64,000 nt of DNA from Alternaria dauci (lineage: Eukaryota > Ascomycota > Dothideomycetes > Pleosporales > Pleosporaceae), in the NCBI RefSeq assembly GCF_042100115.1, contig NC_091275.1:2604001-2668000 (forward strand), in the 5' to 3' direction. Every line of letters begins with the position of its first letter. The stretch's first letter is position 1. Position numbers and translations under genes: made by a program. The notes under the pieces were generated by a model, which did no database searches, was not told the DNA's origin, and worked only from the letters and a program-made list of their open reading frames with translations. Shown piece after piece: positions 44,238 to 56,674 of the stretch.

Positions 44238-44921
44238 CTATGAAGCCGAAGTAAGGGTCTTTGGACGGGACTTGATTGATGCTGCCAGCAGTCCCTTCCA
44301 TATCTCCTCACTCCCTGTGACCAGCCCCGTAATAAGAACAGTGTCAAAAGCAAACAAGACGCTGAGAAAGACCGGACCAATTTCAGGAAGCGGCACCGGA
44401 ATGGGCACCGGAATGAGCACCAGAACCAGACAACCAATCCCAGGATCGCCTTATCTTGTGCTTGAAGCTGTTTTCGGCGGCTGACGTGGAATCGTCTGTG
44501 ACTTCATCGTCATCCAAGAGGCTGACCTTGTCGTAACTGCTATTGCTGGAGACTGCAGTAGTCGCGCTGGCGACAGATATCAGACTCTCGCCAATCGGAG
44601 AGGTATCGACCGCATCAGGCATCGCAGGCATCTCAGGGGAGCTTCGAGCGGTCGAGGGGACTACAGGCGTTGTGATGCTGGAGCCGCGGGTCGATACATT
44701 TGACGCCATACTCAACGAGGTTTTACCAACAGTTGCGGGAATGGACAGCGGATGGGCTGGAAAATAGCCATCATCATTGATGGTACCATCCAAGGCCTCG
44801 CCGAGATCCTTCATATGGAGGGACTCCTTGGTCAGTGGCACTGGGGAGCATATTGAGGAATATTCTTCAACTGGCGTCGAGAGACCTGTCGCTTGAGAAA
44901 CGACATCGCCTTGGTGGTTTC

Positions 44922-44986
44922 CTACAGTGTAGTGTACGAAGGTTAGTGTTTGTCTCTAGTGCGGTTCGTACAGAGACATCACTAAC
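44922..44986 (-). repeat. Introner-like intron D (65 nt)
   Basis: GTTAGT donor and TGTAG acceptor. In the first 40 bases it matches intron B (55736-55800) at 27 positions, including the central GAGACA block. Confidence 0.75.
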
Positions 44987-45079
44987 GCTGGTCACCACGG
45001 TCGTCAAAAACTCCCGTCCAATTAGGCCATTGGATCAAGCAATGAGATGTCGCGTTGTTGACTATCATGCCCCATCTAT

Positions 45080-45143
45080 CTATATTTTGGTCAGTGAAGT
45101 CGATACGTGTCTCATATGCAGATCGTATAGGGACATTGCTTAC
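45080..45143 (-). repeat. Introner-like intron A (64 nt)
   Basis: GTAAGC donor and ATATAG acceptor. Its first 48 bases match intron B of the unrelated lyase gene at 40 positions without gaps. Confidence 0.85.
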
Positions 45144-46419
45144 TGTGAGGAGTACGAGGAGTCTTCGGAGCGCGCAGGCCGCTATCGATGCAGTTCTTGC
45201 CGCAAGTCAAAAGCGCGATACGGGACAGCTCATGCTCAAAGGGTAGGTAATCGACAACGAATCCGTCAAGCTTGAGGCACCTTATTAAACGAGTCAGTCT
45301 CTGCAATGTAGGAAGAAGCTTTCTTCTCAGGAATTGAACACGAGGATGTTCTGTCTTTAGGCTTCAGTCCTTACGACAAAATACCCAGCGATCACCTTTG
45401 AAGTTCTTGTTGTGTTGCAGCTCATAGGGAATGAGCTTTTGGTATGGCTCATGTCTTCCCATCTCTAGGAGATTCACACGTACCATAGCGAGAGCGGCTT
45501 AGCCTCCTCCAAACCTGCGGCGATACGTGCTTTACGCATGCTGAAGTCATCGAGATACTCTCCGGTGCCGAAGAAATGATGTAAGATTCCTTTTCCGTCG
45601 ACGCCCCTGGAAAGTATTAGTAACAGTGGCTCTGTGTTGAACACTGGTTGGGTTCCTGCTCGTAGTAACTCACTTGTACTCCTTTTCTTTGGAATCCGCC
45701 TTTGGAACAGTCAAGCCACGAACGTCCTCAGCTTTGTGCCAGTGGTTTTGACGCACAATTGGGGGCGCTGCCATGCTAAGGTCCAGGACGCGCATGCCGA
45801 TTTCGGACGTGTTGCGAAAGACAGTTTCCCAATACACTGACTGAAGAGAGTCGTGCATACCGAACAGTCGAAGCTCCTTAAGCTTCGTCTGCTGAACAAG
45901 GGGCCTCATCTCTGCTGGTGTAATGTATGACCTATACTCCTTTGTACCATCTTGCTCGAGGCGAACGGGCTGACCGAGGTCGAGAGTAAGCTTCGTGAGC
46001 GACGTGGACAGCTTCTCCCATATGACAGCCATGAACGGCAAACCGGAGATCCAACTAGAAATCATTAACCAACAAGCGGGCGCAGCGAGAAGATGTACAC
46101 ACGTCAATTCTGTGAGCGCAGGCATATGCTCGACGAGCATCGCGATTCGATCGCACGCATTGGGCCACTCTTGTTCGCCCTTCTTCGGTACCGTTGGCTT
46201 CCACTCGCCGACAACGTAAAGCTTGGTCACCGGAGCAAGACGGTCGTAGACATCGATGAGGTAATTGTCGACTTGCTCGACAACGTGCTCAAGCGAAGAG
46301 ACTACATCGCCGTTCTTGTCGCGACCGACGTCGAGTACGAAGCAGTCGGCCTTGTCGCGGTCAGCAGTAAGCGCCTTCTCGAGGATATAGGAACCCAGAT
46401 TGTCCTTGAGTTCTGCCAT

Positions 46420-49400
46420 TGTTCGTGAAGATCAGTTGTGGGGTTGATCAGTTGGCTGGTTGATTGGTTGCAGTGGTCGGTGATAGCGGTTCGGAAATAG
46501 GTGAGTCGAGGATTTTAATACGAGCGGTCTCAAGGTTGTTGCAATTCAGACTGGGGTGGGTACGGAACTGGATTCGGTGCAGCAATGAGGGGTCTGGTAA
46601 GACTGTTTGCTATGGGAAGGCGCTCACGGTGAAATTGCGACGCAAACAATGACGTGAACTCATATCAGGCTGTTTGAAGAACGCACAATAGTCGCCGCAT
46701 GGCTGTAGCATTTCACTACCTTAGGGTGAAATTGAAAATGCCGGTCGTTTGATTGGCTATATAGCGAAAGTGTGTAAGCATGGAAGGTGCACGCCGGAAA
46801 GGTAGGAAGTTGCGGTACATGCCCAATTGCGCTTTCTGATTCAGAGTAGAGCAGACAGTCAGGAGCAACTATTCGTGTGCGCAAGTGGATCACTGCATGA
46901 CATGATCACATCGAGAGACGAGCAGCTCGGGAATCGCATACCAGAATACCGCATGGGGCTTAATGCCGAGTCGTCTCAGACTTGTGAGTAACTCAAAACT
47001 CAAATTAGTGTACAGCTCCAAGAGAATACAGTCAATGCGTCTATGCCAATGGCCCGGGGCTGAAAGCAAGATTTCCTCTCACAATGTACCTCGTCCTAGT
47101 CAGTAACTCTTATATTACCCGCACCTGATGAACGTTCGACAACTGTGTATGCGTATGAATTATCTCTAAAGCTGTCTGCATATTCTCTGAGCCTTGAATT
47201 GGGAGTTTCACACTCTCACACTTCTCTCAAATTGAATGACCAACGCACTGCTGTCTTCGGGTTCTTAATGTCGTACGGACTTAAGCATGACCGTCGCTAA
47301 TGGATTGTTGCCAACGCATGTAGTTAAATCAGTGAAGCTAACATGATATATTCGACGGCTGAAACTGTCCAGTAAGAAGTTCTTCCATTGCCAAGGTCGT
47401 CAAAGCCGTGACAGTGCGCTTTGTTATTCCTCTCTTCTTGGTGGGTAAAACGCTGTAGGTGTAGGCAAGCAACTAGAGTGTCTCATGAGACAAGGGAAGA
47501 TGATAGCACGTGTTTCGCCACTAACACGATCGTATGAAGCTAACGACCAGGAGTCCACATCGGTGTTTACCATATCGGAATACTTTAACAAAAGACGCGC
47601 CGTTGGCTCAACGAAAGATTTGCTTTCCAATAAGAACTCCCAGATGATGTCGGGAAGTGTACCCGAATCCAGAATCTCGATACGAAATCTAAATTACTTT
47701 TCGCTGTTATAAATGGAGGTATGGAACCAGGGCTCAAGTCGGCGTCTTGCATTGCTTTTTAGCTCGATCCATGAGTGACATGGCGGCTTCCAGGGACTGA
47801 TAAGCCACTTGTCATGCCTGGCCCGTCTGCTTAGTCTGTAGTCTTGGTATACCCACGCGGTGCGGGTACACTTCGGGCCGGTTCCGATGCTCCTTGTACA
47901 CGGCGAGAGCAACGTAACCGACGGAACGGTTCACCCGAAGACGGCAGTTGCCTTCGCGTAGATGTGAAAGCTCATACCGGTTTCTGTTTTGATACCTAGG
48001 CGATGCAAGTCGGCGATTGGGTTGCCTCCCAGTACCGCGGTCGTCCCGAGATGTCGTGTCGATTGCGTTGCTTATACGTTTCCAAATACGGGTAGGTCCG
48101 ATTCGTGAAGGTTTATCTAGGTCTAGTTTCATGGGTGGCGCATTCCGCATTCGTGAAAATACGGTCTACAAGAAATCTAGGCATAATAGGTATACTCCAG
48201 AGCTTGATGGGAGTCGGGTGGATCGGGTAGACCGCACTTTCGGCTCCGGATTTACAATCGCGATTGGAGTGGGCCAGCAATCGGATACTGGAACCAACGA
48301 AGATTGGATCTGTAGACTGTAGAATGGGGAAGCTGGTCCGGCACAAAAGTCGGTGTCGAAGAGTCTGAGCTAGGAATCGGTAGTGCGTTCTGTATCCTGT
48401 AAGCCACTGCCCATAGCGAGCAAAAGAAATTATATGAACCAGACCCTTCACCGCATAACGGCAAACTACTCCTCGGAGGTTTTGGCCTGGAATCTGGTTT
48501 TAATTTGACCGTTCTTGATGCCCAATATCAGCCACAAAAGGCCAAATGAGGCGCTCGCTACCCCACAGTATCCCAAAGACACTTGACGCTACGACTGTGG
48601 AGGAATGTCGATCTAAATTAACGCGCTTCGCATCGTACCGTTTGATGAGACTGAACTAGTACGGTACAATGGCACTTTTTCGGAACGTGGCAATGCCATG
48701 CGCCTGGGATCCAAATCTCATGGACTTTTCCGTTGCCTGTCGCGTGGTGACGAATCTTGCCAACTTGCTAACACTTGCACACGATGGTGTTCTACACGAT
48801 GTAGATTTTAATGGTCTCGATTGGCCGTTAGGTTGCTAGGTTGTGACGGCACCCTGCAAGATGGACAAGATTTGTTGTTGTTACATGTGGTCAGTATCCA
48901 TGAAGAATTTGAGATTGACAATTTTCCATGCCCAAACTTGGTCTGGATTACCCATGCGTCCGAGGAAGTGAGTGCAATGTCGCTATCCTAGATCTCTAAG
49001 TCGCTGGACAGAGACCCGAGTTAAAAGCAAAGTGTTGCAAAATGCAGTCATCCACCGGCATGAATCGTTACGAAATCCGAATCGTATTCGTCGTACGTTG
49101 CCCCGTTTGGATCAGGCGGTCATTGATGACCAAATAGGAACAAAAACATGAAACCCTAACGATATAAGAAGGAATTATTGCTCGGGGCAGACTGCTGAGA
49201 GGAGTAAATGTATGTGGACGATGGTGGTGTGTCTTCGCGCCTCATGACGTAAATGCGCTTCGCTGGCAGAGTCACGAGCCATTTCGACAATTATGCATCC
49301 TTGAACTTGTATGGTAGATTTCATTCGCCTCGAAAGTGCTTGAAACTGTCCGCGGAGCGACCTGGATTGAGGGCTGCAGTTGCTGCAAGAGCAAGGAACA

Positions 49401-50558
49401 TGCTTGCAGATCTAGGGCTGCTGCATGGCGGAGGGGAGCAAGTCTGACATGTGGGATCTAGCAGGATGAGATCGGAAACACCCCACGCTAACTAATCTAC
49501 GGCTAAGCGCCTACCACCTAGAGTACGACCGAACTCCTGACTGCCTCACGAAGGATGCGACACATCATGACACTTTCAAATATCGACTGCGCCGTCGGCG
49601 GGATCGCCCCGCTACCGGAGAGACGGACAGGGGATGACATAACTTCCGGTTGTGCATTCACAGACTGTGGTGATGATTCCTCCAAGGCCTGTAACTTTAT
49701 GCGCCTTTCACCGGTAAGCAACAGTCGTGCAACAAATCCTTCTTCCTATATGTGTAAAATTTGCGCCTTGAAAAGCTTCGACGGCAGGGTTATTGCGTTG
49801 GATGACGAAGTTGTCGCGCTCGAGACCACGGTGCTGAACTAATCTTGGTTCTGGATGGATCATCCAATCTCCGCACCTAAAATTGGTCTTTGTTTGAAGC
49901 AGCCTTGATGCATCCATCGCCCCATGCCGAGGAGGGTCGCGAAATTGTTGGAGTAGCTGTTGGGTATGACAATGGTAACTGAGAGGAGACGTAGCAGTAG
50001 CTGGGTGTGGAAGTCCATCGTGTCTGGGCAGAAAATTGCACACGAATGCTTATAATCTTATCAGGTAAACTATATATGAAAGAACGCTCGTAATGCAGAT
50101 AAGAAAATGATATAAGTCTAGGCTAGCTAGTAGGATGCTATTTTTGATACGTTTGCTGCTACAGGAGGTGCGTGGGTTGCATTTTCAATACAGTGAGTGA
50201 CAACAGAAGTTGTTGTGGTTGCTATTGCGGCGCTCGTCGCGCAGTCTAGATCATGTTTTTGCGTGGCTAAGCGCCTGGGCGTCCGTTATCTTTGATTGGC
50301 GACTTGGTGCGGGTTGTAGTACTGATATTCCGTGGGAAATAATATACACGCGGGCTAGGGATGCGTTGCGACGGAGCTGTGGCCGTGGTATCTTCGGGTG
50401 CCGCCGGTGTTACGTAGATGTTATTGAAAATCGAAATCGCAATGCGAATTGGTTTGCATGGCGCCGGATGAGGGTCGATACTGTGGGACGAAGGTCTCGA
50501 GCGTGTTCGCTAGGGGTGAAGATAAGATGGAATGTGCCAACCCAAAATCTTCCGTCAT
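46420..50558. other. Gene-poor stretch
   Basis: No intact gene could be supported in these 4.1 kb. Coding-like fragments occur on the minus strand at about 47700-48450 (for example L-R-V-N-R-S-V-G-Y-V-A-L-A-V-Y-K-E-H, then after a TGA V-A-Y-Q-S-L-E-A-A-M-S-L-M-D-R-A). Another is at 49850-50018 (-), a 51-codon frame with a hydrophobic start. They may be decayed genes. The rest appears non-coding. Confidence 0.4.
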
Positions 50559-51103
50559 TCAAACACTGCGAGACGAACGGTTGTCCTTTATGCCGACATT
50601 CATCTTACAGTCTTCGTCGTCGTCCGAGTCAAGCATGTGGTCACCAGGAAAGCGTCTTAATCCACTCTCCAGCATCCGGAAAGTCTCTGAGTAGGCCTTC
50701 GAGGGAACGGCGTCCGGAGGAATGATGAGTGAAGCGACATCCATCTTGATCGATCTGGGATAGGGGAGATCATTTGGATCTCTAATGAACCAACTGGGGT
50801 CCTGCGTAGCATCGACCTTTCTTGTATGATGCGAGTTTAGGTCTGAAAATCTCTCATCCAGAATCTTGCGTAGCACGCGCTCAACTTGCTCATCTGTGGG
50901 GCCCTGTATGGCCTGTCTCTGTTCCAGTAGAAGGATGCGTTCGTGCAGTTTCCGAAAGCACAGTTCTGTTCTGCGCATGAACTCATGGCTATAGAGATAA
51001 GCATGATTGAATTACCACAATGAACGAATTGCTGTGCTTACTACCATGCTGCAATCTGATCGAAAGATTGATTGATCTTCTGCACCTGGAACGTAAACGA
51101 CAT
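50559..51103 (-). CDS. Small hypothetical protein, helical N-terminus and acidic C-terminus
   Basis: Exon 1 (51103-51042, M-S-F-T-F-Q-V-Q-K-I-N-Q-S-F-D-Q) joins exon 2 (50988-50559) across a 53-nt intron. The GTAAGC donor is preferred because it gives A-A-W-Y-H-E-F-M-R-R. The 163-residue product starts with a long amphipathic helix (R-K-L-H-E-R-I-L-L-L-E-Q-R-Q-A-I). Next come T-D-E-Q-V-E-R-V-L-R-K-I-L-D-E-R-F and a Pro-containing middle, and it ends near an acidic run D-S-D-D-D-E-D. It is the only convincing gene in the 46.4-54.8 kb stretch. No family was recognised. Confidence 0.68.
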
Positions 51104-54100
51104 GTTTGAGCCGTAGAAGAGACGTCAAGTAATGAGTGACTGGAGTTATGGGGGGTGGGAAACGCCTTGAGAGGTTCCGCCAGCTGAGTGTAAGTACTTG
51201 AGAGTGAAGAGCTACGTATGGGCAAAGACAAAGATGGGGTGGGGTGGGGTGTAGGAAGGGAGAACCGGCAACGCTGATATACGTGTATGATCCTTAAAGG
51301 TGTGAATCCCGGAGAGGCGTTTCAAGCGGCACCAACAAGCCCGACTTCTGATATGCAGTTAGGTGGGTAGCGCGGCAGGGCCCTCGGATGGCGCGAGACT
51401 TTAATGGGCCGTCTGGCCAGTGGGGATTGCAAGGTAGATATCCAATCAAAGCCACGCAAGTATGCAACCCTCTCAAGTCTCCCGAATTGGGTGTATCTGG
51501 CTATACGTGTCAGCTCAAGCAAGGCATCATTCGGAAAAGGGAACGGCGGAACATACCGCTGAATAGAGCTTATTGAGTGGTAAGTGCGAAGACAGGCAAC
51601 GCAAGATGTAGGAACTGATCTTTCCCTTCCAAGGTTTCCACCGGATGCAATTGCGTAAGTCTCAGGGATGCAGGGGCATATGCAACGACACCGCCCCCAT
51701 CGATATGATCGACAATGCTAGCGACAAAGGTGCATACATGTCGATGTCGAGTGGCTTACCTGTCTGTGCGTGCAGGGTACCCAGATACTGTTGCCAACCC
51801 GTTTGAGCACAGCTCGTGGTCGTCTCACCGCGGAACAAGAAACAGCACGCGGGGACGGGTTCCTGTCCCAGCGGCGGTGCGTGCCGTGCATGCCATCAGG
51901 TCAATCCGGTTATTGCCGTACCTCTATGCCAAGGCTCTCGCATGTGGTTGCCTTGTACATGGCTTTTGCATCCCTCTGTTTAGTCTTCGCTAGTATTTTT
52001 TTTTATAGAGCTGGAAATGAAGAGAATTCGTCGCTGGTCGAGGTGCGTGACCTGATGATGTCTCTATTCGTCGTTGGTCTTGGGACGCTCGCAAATTGCG
52101 CGTCAGGTTCGTGATTACGGCGCCAGTCTCAAAGTAGTTACAAGGGGTTCTTAGCAGCGGATCCCGGGAACGACTTTCAACTCCTTAACCATCCTCTTCA
52201 TCGGTGAACAAATCCGCAAGCGAAGCAACCAGACACATCAATTGTCCCGACAAACACCAGTTCCCCCTAGTATGTTGCCAGTCTCTAGCTTGGGAAGCTC
52301 ATAGTTAGTTACGATCAGGTTTTTCTCCAGCCGTGTGCCACTTGGACTGTCCGGGGTCAGTGCGTCGCGTCTTGTCCACACCAAACAATCGCCGATCCTC
52401 CTCGCGGTTTTCCTGCGCTTGACTCCGTTCTGTCGTCTTTTGAATGCCTAGAGCCGAATCCTGCTGTGGCTCAGCAATAAAACTTGATTTGCTAAATCAC
52501 TGATAAGACTCCTTCACACGAATTGCATTCACTAAGTCTACAAACGCGATGCCAGTATACTGACCTTTGATGAGGAAGAAATACATGATTCACCCCACAT
52601 AACTACCGTGGTAATGTTTGGATGCAGACGGTATATTATTCCCGTTATCGGAGATTGCGCCTAGGCTGCTCAGCCAGCGATGTAATGATCCGAGGCATTG
52701 ACCTATACGCTCTCTGATTCGCCTTGGAATTCACGATGATCAAGCTTTGGGACACTTAACAATCGGCGATCGGTATGGTATCCTATTGGATGAACGCCAG
52801 CATACATTCCATGATTGATATACAACACAGTCGTGCTACCGGGGATACAAGGTACACACATGGCATAGCTTACTGACAGCTGGTATTATTGGAAAGTATG
52901 CCGCACAGATTGCAACCGGCATAAATGCGCGCTAAAGCCTGCTTCATCGGTGAGCCACGGATCACGCGTCAATTGCTGAGGCGTCACCCGATACTCTAGT
53001 ATCGATCAACTAGACTTTTCATGTATTTCATTCCAGAAGCATCGAGTACCTACCCCGCAATCTCCAGGCGCTCATCGATAGAGACCGCAGATCCAGCTAG
53101 TTGAATTGTTGACGGACATGTCCAATTCATAGGTCTTAGCCACCTCCACATTATTTGAGCTTTCGTTCGTTGGTTTCAGATCAGATTTTCGACCATCCAA
53201 ATGCGTATCTGCATATGCAAGGGTCTCTACTTGATAGAGAGCGGTAAGGCTGATAGCCCTTGAGTATCAGCGGACCACATGGCGCCATTGCCGAGCTGAT
53301 ACGTCGGAAGATTTTTCAATTAAACAGGGCAAGTACAAGCATTCTAGCCCTGCGTGTCCAGCTACTTGACTTCGGTAGTTGGATTACATCCCAGTCTGCG
53401 AATCCTGTCACTTATATTGGGCTAATGCAGCGTCCCGGGCACTCTGCCTGCAGTAGACTGCACTGGGCTCTGGTATAGCACCCGATTCCGGTAGGGAGTA
53501 CTCAACTTTGCTGTGGTTTCGCATTCTGGGTCACAATTTCAGGTAAGAATAAGAGTATGTATACTTAAATCGCAAAAGAAGATTCGAGCTAAGAAGGCCT
53601 GGATTTAGTGATGGTATTGGACATTACTTAAATATTCTGTTCTGAAATCGGTCGCCTATCGATTCAGACCACCTGCATGCCTCGCCAATTCTGGAAAAGA
53701 TCATCACATCGTCGATGACTTATGGTCGTTCCACATGAAGGCTAGTTGCCTCCCTTCGCTAAAGACCGTGACATGACTCTTCTGGCACGTCTTCTGATAG
53801 AACATGTGCATGCGCGAGAGAGTCGTTCTATCTATCAATCCTGCAAAGTTCTAAGTAGGCAAACAGATATTAGTCCTCGATCCGAGCTTCCTACCTTAGA
53901 TAGGATCGCATATCCGGGTTCATCCTCGCTTGGAATTTCGCGAGGTCCATACAAATGGCCATGCCGCACCAAGAACCGGATCGCTTGACGCACGAAGTAA
54001 GCGCTGGGACGCCGCGGCAATCCCGCGGCGCTTTCAAACCACTCCTACCTGTTTCTTTGTCCATGCTCTCGCGATGGAAGGATCCGATACCACTACCGGT

Positions 54101-54836
54101 GCTAAATTTATGCTGTCGATGGCATCTCCGTACGAGCTTGACATTGCCGATTCACAGGTCCAGCACCTTAAGCGGAGGCAGATATAGCGATTCCACAATG
54201 TCTTCACTCGGAGAATACTGTCCTTACGGTGAACCCCTAGAGACTCAGCGCTCCTCGATCTCTGTGTTAGTCTGACCACTGACTCGCAGGTATCTATGTT
54301 TAGCATGTCGGACGTATACCTGCCCTTTTAAGACTCCGAATTGCCGAATATAGATGTCATGTCCATATAAGAGAAAAAGACATACGATTGTAAACTTGTA
54401 CGACCATCGGTGGAGCTAACGGAATCATCATTCCTTCCACGATAACGAATAGCTTCTGGTTTGGCAAACACAATTGCCACGGCGATCAGCGCTGTCGTGA
54501 AAAATAGTGTTCAATGCAAACTGCATTGCACGCTGAACCTGTATGGATGTCTCGGTATTCTAAGTTGACCTTTGGCGACGACGACCAATTCCACGCGGGA
54601 ATCATCGTAGGTCCTGGTAAGAATCTCAACCGACGGAGAACGAAGAGCTAACCGAGGCATGAGAAGATGAACGTACAACATCTGCGAAGATATGTTCATA
54701 AACTATGAATGGAATAATGAGTATCAACAAGAAGAAAGACTCGGTGCTACATCTGCATAAAAGAGTCAATGTCATACGCCCTGTGGATTCTATACCTATA
54801 TTTGGGTATAGTACCGGGCTGTATACGTTCAGACAT
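51104..54836. other. Gene-poor stretch
   Basis: No supported gene in 3.7 kb. A plus-strand frame at 51770-52114 ends with two hydrophobic segments (V-A-L-Y-M-A-F-A-S-L-C-L-V-F-A-S-I-F-F and M-M-S-L-F-V-V-G-L-G-T-L) that could be a relic of a membrane protein. Minus-strand frames at 53835-54020 and 54034-54306 are short and unsupported. The rest shows nothing. Confidence 0.4.
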
Positions 54837-56674
54837 CTACCTGAACAACTCTATCGCATCCAAAATCACATTTGGAGCTAGAAAGCCATCACCGGTGCTT
54901 CCACTCGTGCAGCTGATCGTAATGGTGTTACTTCCGCTAACCAACGTGCCAGCTGGTATGTCATAGTCGTAGACCTCGCCGAACCCCCGATACGCGCCTC
55001 GAGTCAAGCCACGCGAATCGATCTTTGTCGGCGCAGCAGGTGTGGCGGGACTGAAGCTGTTGACTACAACCGAGGGACGGCAACCAGCGAAGGAGAGTGT
55101 GGTGCCGACGCGGAGTGTCGCTGCGGCAGTAGAGGTGCCCGAGAACTTGATGGTAAGAGGATTGTTGTCTTTGACAATGGCCATGGGGACGCTGTCAAGG
55201 GTGCTGGAGCCAACTGTATATGTCAGTGGACCCCAGGATGCCATGCGTGAGTCTGTGGGATGCATTCGCAATTGCTTGTCTGCGTTCCGGAAGCCCTTAG
55301 GCTGGCCATCCCACTCGCCGATGCGCCAGACTGAAGTCTTAGTTTCGGCATCTGCGGCGATGTTCGCAGTGGTGGTCTTGCCAGCTGAGACTGTCACACT
55401 GGCGGCTTTGACCTTGAACTCCCCTTGGTAGAGGACTTGTGTGTAGGTTCCCGGCTTCATTGCTGGCGATGTGAATTTTCCGCTGCTGTCGGCGTACGCC
55501 CAGTACTGGGCTGCATCGTTGTACCAGTGCAACACTCGTTGGAAACTGGAGCCAACACCTGTTGCCGTCCCAGATACCGTACCCCTAGCAGATGGAGCAA
55601 CGTAGCCGGTTACACTGAGGTCCTTGAAAAAGGTAGTGTCCATACTGGAGCCGCCTTGGGATACACCAGAGCGAGAGAATGCTAGGGCATATGGCCCATG
55701 TAGACCCTGACGGAACTTTTCCGTTTGAACGTGGCCTAAGAAGTACGTTTACGAAGTCAGTGCGTGTCTCACATACAGTTTGTATAGGGACATTCCTTAC
55801 CACTGTTCATATAGAAGGTCAATGAAGTGTAGTCCCCTGAGATATGAGTGTACGAGGTCAGTATATGTCTCATATTCAGTCCGTACAGAAAATTCTCCTA
55901 CCTCCATTGTTGGTGTTAATGTCGCGATAGAAAGGACCACCCGAGGAGCCCTCATAAGAGTAGGAGTTCATAAGGAAGCAGGCATGAACTGCGTCGGTAC
56001 CATCACGATAGACGCAATGCTAAATCGCGTTAGTAGAGAAATTCAAGGTGATGGAGAACTGTAGAGGATCTTACGGTAGTGTCGTCGATGAAACGCTCAC
56101 TTGAATAAAATTTACTCCGCGTCTGTCCATCGACTACGAAAACATCTGACCCTTCGACTGTCGATGTTGACCCAACGGTCGTTGATACGACGCCAAAAGG
56201 ATACTCGAGTGGTAGAGCGCTACTTTTCAGACGAGCGATGAAGCGTAGTTCACCAATGTCGGGCTCGGCAGTCGTATACGTCGCCATGTATATCGTCGCT
56301 TCGCCAGACTTGGCAACAAGGTAATGCGTCAAGGTACTAGTCGTACAAGTAACCTTGACATATTGGCCTGTTAGATTCTATCAGTCAATTATCTTGATGC
56401 ACAGGAGACACAACTCACTGCTGATCGTCTCGTACTTGACAGTTGCAGTGCCCAGCCCAGAGGAGATGTGCGATCCCTTCTCAGGCGACTGCAACTCTTC
56501 TCCCCTGTACTTAATCGAAGTGATATCACAACTCTTCGCGTTGACGGTAAAGATGAGGGGATTAGTCGCGCCAGCATCAACCACGATGTCGTCGCCAGTT
56601 TGTGTGACACCAAAAGCCGCAAGGGCCGAGGGAGAGAGCGTGGCCGCGGCAAGCAGCGCGCTCTTGAACAACAT
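54837..56674 (-). CDS. Rhamnogalacturonan lyase, polysaccharide lyase family 4
   Basis: Five exons (56674-56419, 56367-56075, 56019-55902, 55836-55801, 55735-54837) keep phase across introns of 51, 55, 65 and 65 nt and give 533 residues. A signal peptide ([19 protein letters not shown]) directs secretion. Family blocks run from [16 protein letters not shown] and T-L-T-H-Y-L-V-A-K to [10 protein letters not shown]. They continue with [34 protein letters not shown] and [18 protein letters not shown]. The enzyme cuts rhamnogalacturonan I in pectin by beta-elimination. The C-terminal domain is a carbohydrate-binding-like beta sandwich. The two 65-nt introns flanking the 36-nt exon 4 are introner-like. 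Confidence 0.95.
55736..55800 (-). repeat. Introner-like intron B (65 nt)
   Basis: GTAAGG donor and CTTAG acceptor. It shares 40 of the first 48 bases with intron A in the LRR-like gene and 43 of 65 with intron C, without gaps. Confidence 0.85.
55837..55901 (-). repeat. Introner-like intron C (65 nt)
   Basis: GTAGGA donor and CTCAG acceptor. It has the same length as intron B and matches it at 43 of 65 ungapped positions. It shares TCGTACACT with intron D. Confidence 0.8.

Follow-up and report, generated by a model that had tools for sequence, protein, structure and literature searches.

Four short introns in two genes of the carrot pathogen Alternaria dauci very probably belong to a single family of introner-like elements, i.e., complete spliceosomal introns which have copied themselves in sense orientation into the coding exons of unrelated genes. 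We draw this conclusion from the further copies present throughout the genome, from their GT-AG borders, from the sense reading frames of their hosts and from the read-through of the insertion positions in relatives. A preliminary description of the window (the 64-kb stretch of DNA analyzed here) had already proposed introner-like elements, and this interpretation is supported by the copies found elsewhere and by the open reading frames (ORFs) of relatives without the introns.

Four homologous introns in the window

All four introns lie on the minus strand. Copies A (45080..45143, 64 nt) and B (44922..44986, 65 nt) interrupt the gene ACET3X_005435, with copy B 93 nt downstream of copy A; copies D (55837..55901, 65 nt) and C (55736..55800, 65 nt), both in phase 1, interrupt ACET3X_005437. 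The coordinates, strand and lengths (64, 65, 65, and 65 nt) initially given for them were correct, and every one of the four begins with GT and ends with AG. An HMM trained on 31 copies from elsewhere in the genome and on none of the window sequences recovered just these four introns from the 64 kb, with E-values of 5.4e-10 (A), 4.7e-9 (B), 4.9e-17 (C), and 3.3e-13 (D); the next match had an E-value of 0.26. A sequence-only model built with the four window introns included agreed with this result. The claimed homology is therefore real. The identities first quoted for it were too high: ungapped counting gives 30/48 instead of 40/48 for A and B, 39/65 instead of 43/65 for C and B, and 26/40 instead of 27/40 for D and B.

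The host of A and B (44383..46419, minus strand) is a conserved uncharacterized gene of 529 amino acids from ATG to stop. It contains three further introns on the same strand (46055-46102, 45607-45673, and 45281-45483; the third was located through homology with P0241), and its 529 codons are open once all five introns are removed. With A retained the frame stops at 329 codons and with B retained at 351. The 93-nt exon between the two copies (44987..45079) encodes protein that matches relatives, the Alternaria arborescens protein P0242 aligns with the spliced protein across both junctions, and the alignment with P0243 also crosses the junction of B. Relatives of this gene are present in other Alternaria and in Pleosporales; a Pfam scan of a fragment of the gene matched no family. 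Since the frame is open when spliced and matching relatives exist, P0242 even across the junctions, the initial view that the gene is damaged is not borne out. The intron at 45281-45483 is, with 203 nt, long for this gene, whose other introns have 48-67 nt. P0241 and the relatives show one intron there, and the relatives' ORFs contain no extra residues at this site. This intron might hold remnants of older insertions.

Copies C and D reside in a gene model for a PL4 rhamnogalacturonate lyase (54837..56674, minus strand; 533 amino acids from ATG to stop) which has two further introns at 56368-56418 and 56020-56074. The 533 residues are obtained when C and D are removed, whereas the protein is shortened to 230 residues when D is kept and to 244 when C is kept. 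Between D and C lies a micro-exon of 36 nt, or 12 codons (55801..55836), which is missing from the public gene model. Its residues are contained in P0002 from Alternaria tenuissima, and PDB entry 1nkg aligns with residues 20-533 of the lyase through the micro-exon (E 7.9e-207). Automatic annotation goes wrong at introns of this kind, as both host genes of the window are mis-spliced at them in the public gene models: in the A. dauci model P0001 of the lyase the sequence GRRIFC, read from the start of intron D, replaces 13 residues, and in P0241, the model of the A/B host, the residues RIDFTDQNID derive from the end of intron A and the next exon bases.

A family of copied introns in the A. dauci genome

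The whole genome (34.9 Mb in 10 contigs, 64 kb of which are the window) was searched in several ways. BLASTN with one copy as query yielded 31 places including the query itself and copy C of the window. A 26-base pattern with up to three mismatches matched at 101 places and the reversed pattern at none; for a 28-base pattern taken from the intron's other half we obtained 41 places versus 0 for the reversed control, and for a looser 23-base family pattern 345 matches versus 6. Further copies, as anticipated in the preliminary description, are thus present genome-wide. Merging the BLASTN places, the 26-base matches (100 of the 101 places), the 28-base matches, one extra place and copy B of the window gave 122 distinct places, and all 10 contigs are represented among them. 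The family has no fewer than a few hundred copied introns in this genome. Since the 23-base pattern misses some of the HMM-found copies (it recognizes 51 of the 55 central ones and 13 of the 20 neighboring ones), we estimate a true number of possibly about 500.

For the anatomy of the copies we used 56 distinct loci (of 95) of 3 kb each, in which the HMM found 78 copies at E-values up to 1e-4. GT-AG borders were assigned to 75 of the 78 by a rule which looks for GT and AG close to the expected ends; this figure is therefore partly built in. Of the three copies left by the rule the central one, at locus L032, was bordered by eye, and two opposite-strand copies are without borders. In the BLAST-found copies, with borders picked by eye, GT and AG stand at the family ends in 31 of 31 cases. 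The copies are mostly 61-65 nt long with length peaks at 61 and 64-65 nt, and they fall into two main types, one of about 65 nt (GTAAGAAATGTCC...) and one of 61 nt (GTAAGTGTCC...), besides a third, smaller type with a GCAG end. Upstream of the 3′ end there is a CTGAC box, which we take to be the branch site.

The similarity spans the whole intron up to both splice sites and no further; within six exon positions on each side of the 75 bordered copies no base exceeds 49%. The median identity within the three types is 0.67, 0.72, and 0.75. Near-identical and hence recently moved copies were not found among the 75 copies compared, the closest of the 2775 pairs having an identity of 0.90. Near-identical copies are not required of introner-like elements, because families of Dothistroma septosporum are described likewise in the passages of PMC4457414 on this species.

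Host genes and orientation

When the ORFs over the spliced junction were determined, the sense frame was longer than the antisense frame for 70 of the 75 copies (median 984 vs. 258 nt), and retention of the intron shifted or stopped the chosen frame for 74 of them. Judged by the longest spliced frame, 36 copies are in phase 1, 20 in phase 2, and 19 in phase 0. The hosts are unrelated to each other. Seven of ten host fragments matched Pfam families, each a different set (carbon–nitrogen hydrolase, GH35 beta-galactosidase, AA9, sugar transporter, histidine kinase, glutamine synthetase, and GH2), and three were without a match.

Two loci deserve a closer description. At L062 four bordered copies and a fifth weak match (E 0.0016) are found between positions 1126 and 1827 in one gene; its ORF matches a carbon–nitrogen hydrolase domain, and the gene is presumably a glutamine-dependent NAD synthetase. 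Locus L026 contains a complete M28-type peptidase gene, and the sole two introns in its model are family copies, at amino acids 122 and 347. The spliced gene encodes 484 amino acids; if the first intron is kept the protein ends after 122 residues, and if the second alone is kept, after 347.

The insertion sites in relatives

The relatives appear to lack introns A–D, as their apparently unspliced ORFs read through all four positions. With the two sites of the peptidase there are six positions in three genes at which such ORFs are without an intron, the data being ORF calls on contigs from metagenomes or read archives, and some of these contigs are possibly transcripts. According to the preliminary description, the same introns at the same positions in distant homologues would speak for old inheritance; this was not found in the apparently unspliced ORFs of the relatives.

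Several entries carry traces of unspliced sequence. P0061 (lgn), a relative of the lyase, has 16 extra residues near amino acids 181-183, an intron position in A. dauci, and reads through the positions of C and D. For the A/B host, P0250 and P0259 (jgi) as well as P0268 (lgn) start with unrelated residues immediately upstream of the first junction in this gene, and their ORFs run through the positions of A and B. For the peptidase, P0143 (lgn), P0145 (lgn and ena), and P0155 (lgn) start with unrelated residues just before amino acid 183 and run through the second site at amino acid 347. On account of these extra or unrelated residues we regard such entries as unspliced ORFs. P0106 (ena, 95% identical) starts at amino acid 200 of the lyase and continues across the positions of C and D as far as its end; it is likely an unspliced call. 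The first peptidase site at amino acid 122 depends on four entries which we assume to be unspliced, namely P0121 (jgi, 95% identical, contig 6009), P0124 (jgi, 12,996), P0125 (mgnify and ena, 16,203), and P0129 (jgi, 65,221); all four have a full-length peptidase ORF with no extra residues at both sites. The contig of P0126 is, with 1515 bases, too short for the peptidase ORF and two introns, though it is possibly a transcript. A search for paralogues of the lyase, for a comparison of presence and absence within the genome, revealed just distant ones (41% identity and below).

Relation to known copied introns

Copied introns are a known route of intron gain in fungi. A family 1 introner of Alternaria alternata, with a 64-base interval, is shown as an example without known transposition features by Gozashti et al. 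(2022, PMC9860276), and the ascomycete introner families are described in the respective passages as having neither TIRs nor TSDs. As far as the A. alternata introners are described there, the A. dauci family resembles them in the genus, the length of intron A, the similarity over the whole intron, the location in unrelated genes, and the lack of a TSD. The consensus of the A. dauci family is self-complementary near its ends, whereas the ascomycete families are called TIR-free in these passages. Given the A. alternata introner, the A. dauci family is therefore either a new member of this group or, on a comparison by description, the A. alternata family in another species. Among the matches listed for literature on the A. 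dauci genome and its introns, no title reports an introner.

Introner-like elements of other Dothideomycetes are known from Fulvia fulva, D. septosporum, and Zymoseptoria tritici (Collemare et al. 2015, PMC4457414). In the parts of that study on these elements they share with the A. dauci family the many similar introns in unrelated genes, the occurrence of two in one gene, the insertion where others lack introns, and the decay towards ordinary introns. The elements of F. fulva and Z. tritici are reported there to reach 99% and 98% identity, whereas our best pair has 90%; the A. dauci family is nearer to that of D. septosporum, in which the elements are said to be less similar to one another.

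A third comparison concerns the symmetrical sister (stw)introns of Hypoxylaceae and Xylariaceae, which, according to the sections of PMC8469720 and PMC12403724 that describe them, also carry terminal or near-terminal inverted repeats, are without a target-site duplication and are functional on the coding strand only. These introns are described mostly as nested [D1,2] stwintrons (one of 207 nt) or cropped ones (one of 93 nt), whereas the A. dauci introns are single and mostly 61-65 nt long. An intron of this length appears too short to accommodate the internal donor-splitting intron of a [D1,2] stwintron. Our findings place a large burst of intron gain in a genus of crop pathogens for which strains and RNA data should be readily obtainable, exemplified by a peptidase gene which is apparently intron-free at two sites in relatives and whose only introns are family copies.

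Structure of the copies and mechanism of copying

When compared with its own reverse complement, the consensus of the 65-nt type outscored all of 2000 dinucleotide shuffles and that of the 61-nt type all but one of 2000, and the consensus of both main types contains a perfect inverted repeat of 8 nt near the termini. The GCAG-ended type showed no self-complementarity (453 of 2000 shuffles reached the score of its consensus). Folding of the consensus sequences gave z-scores of only -1.5 for the 65-nt, -2.2 for the 61-nt, and -0.2 for the third type. RNAalifold detected no consensus structure in 35 aligned copies, and single copies folded no better than shuffled sequences (mean z 0.15, 0.28, -0.36, and -0.03 in four groups). 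The fraction of consensus pairs kept in the copies was 0.810 versus 0.814 after shuffling for the 61-nt type and 0.804 versus 0.796 for the 65-nt type; for the outer stem of the 65-nt type it was 0.769 versus 0.752, a value reached by 9 of 500 shuffles. Closeness to the consensus was not linked to folding in the 65-nt type (rho 0.17, p 0.32) and was weakly linked, in the expected direction, in the 61-nt type (rho -0.42, p 0.045). A hairpin, a feature to look for according to the preliminary description, is predicted for the family consensus, but the individual copies have no excess structure.

The insertion in sense and the lack of a target-site duplication favor a route via RNA. RNA-mediated copying appears to be the likeliest mechanism, on tests that do not separate it from direct insertion of DNA, and an RNA route has been proposed by others in their discussion of fungal introners (PMC9860276; PMC8469720). 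The spliced intron RNA would reverse-splice into a transcript or into transcribed DNA and would then be reverse transcribed, and a self-complementary ancestral sequence could help copying. After insertion the copies would decay like ordinary introns, and the hairpin may be a property of the copying ancestor which is lost by this decay. More tentatively, and with considerable doubt, we suggest that the active ancestor was a nearly self-complementary intron RNA and that its near-terminal repeat was needed for copying and not for splicing, so that it decays after insertion. If this is true, the similar design reported for the distant Xylariales would point to a single RNA-based copying route across Pezizomycotina, aimed at particular genes.

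The self-complementary consensus and the perfect near-terminal repeat of two of the three types would also suit a MITE-like introner, that is a non-autonomous DNA transposon with inverted-repeat ends which is moved by a transposase and whose duplicated fixed target (GT or GTA) supplies a splice site. In the same direction points the base 3′ of the intron, as compared between groups formed after seeing the data: G stands there in 26 of 36 copies of the 65-nt type and in 5 of 23 of the 61-nt type (p = 0.0002), and GT in 13 of 36 and 1 of 23, respectively. However, the bases at the 5′ and 3′ borders of the 75 copies match no more than expected from permutation, and no target-site duplication was found with this test, which a never-varying target would escape. 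One of 24 positions, deep in the intron, had a p of 0.006 in all 75 copies, and we take this as chance. The strand bias also argues against a transposon, as 20 of 22 neighboring copies have the same orientation as the first copy and 70 of 75 are in sense to their hosts. We therefore consider a DNA transposon unlikely.

Crowding of copies

Among the 122 places there are 9 neighboring pairs within 1.5 kb, all on the same strand, and two of them are the window's own pairs. The 100 listed places of the 26-base pattern include 6 pairs closer than 2 kb, one of them from the window and again all on the same strand, versus about 0.6 expected for a uniform genome. In the 56 loci of 3 kb there are 22 extra copies, one being copy D of the window, and 20 of the 22 run in the same direction as the first copy. 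Limitation of insertion to genes would account for part of the crowding. The close same-strand pairs and the extra copies could also result from local tandem duplication or gene conversion instead of separate insertions. Yet the copies of one locus are no more alike than others, their median identity being 0.646 (26 pairs) versus 0.703 for 2900 other pairs, a value biased downward as the extra copies are weaker matches. Independent insertion into attractive genes therefore seems the likelier origin, and we judge local duplication to be improbable. Genes in which copies crowd could be used to study directly which properties turn a gene into a target.

That the introns are old and inherited, and alike merely through splice signals or gene duplication, is hardly credible: the copies are diverged (at best 0.90 identity) and a CTGAC branch site and GT/AG ends are common to ordinary fungal introns, but the similarity extends over the entire intron in unrelated hosts, the reversed patterns gave 0, 0, and 6 matches versus 101, 41, and 345, and the relatives' ORFs contradict this origin at six positions, as far as the ORF calls show.

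A last observation concerns the distribution of the copies along the genome. Contig C1, which makes up 20% of the genome, carries 36 of the 100 listed copies (p = 0.0002), and at about 2.15-2.54 Mb of this contig 12 copies lie within 0.39 Mb.
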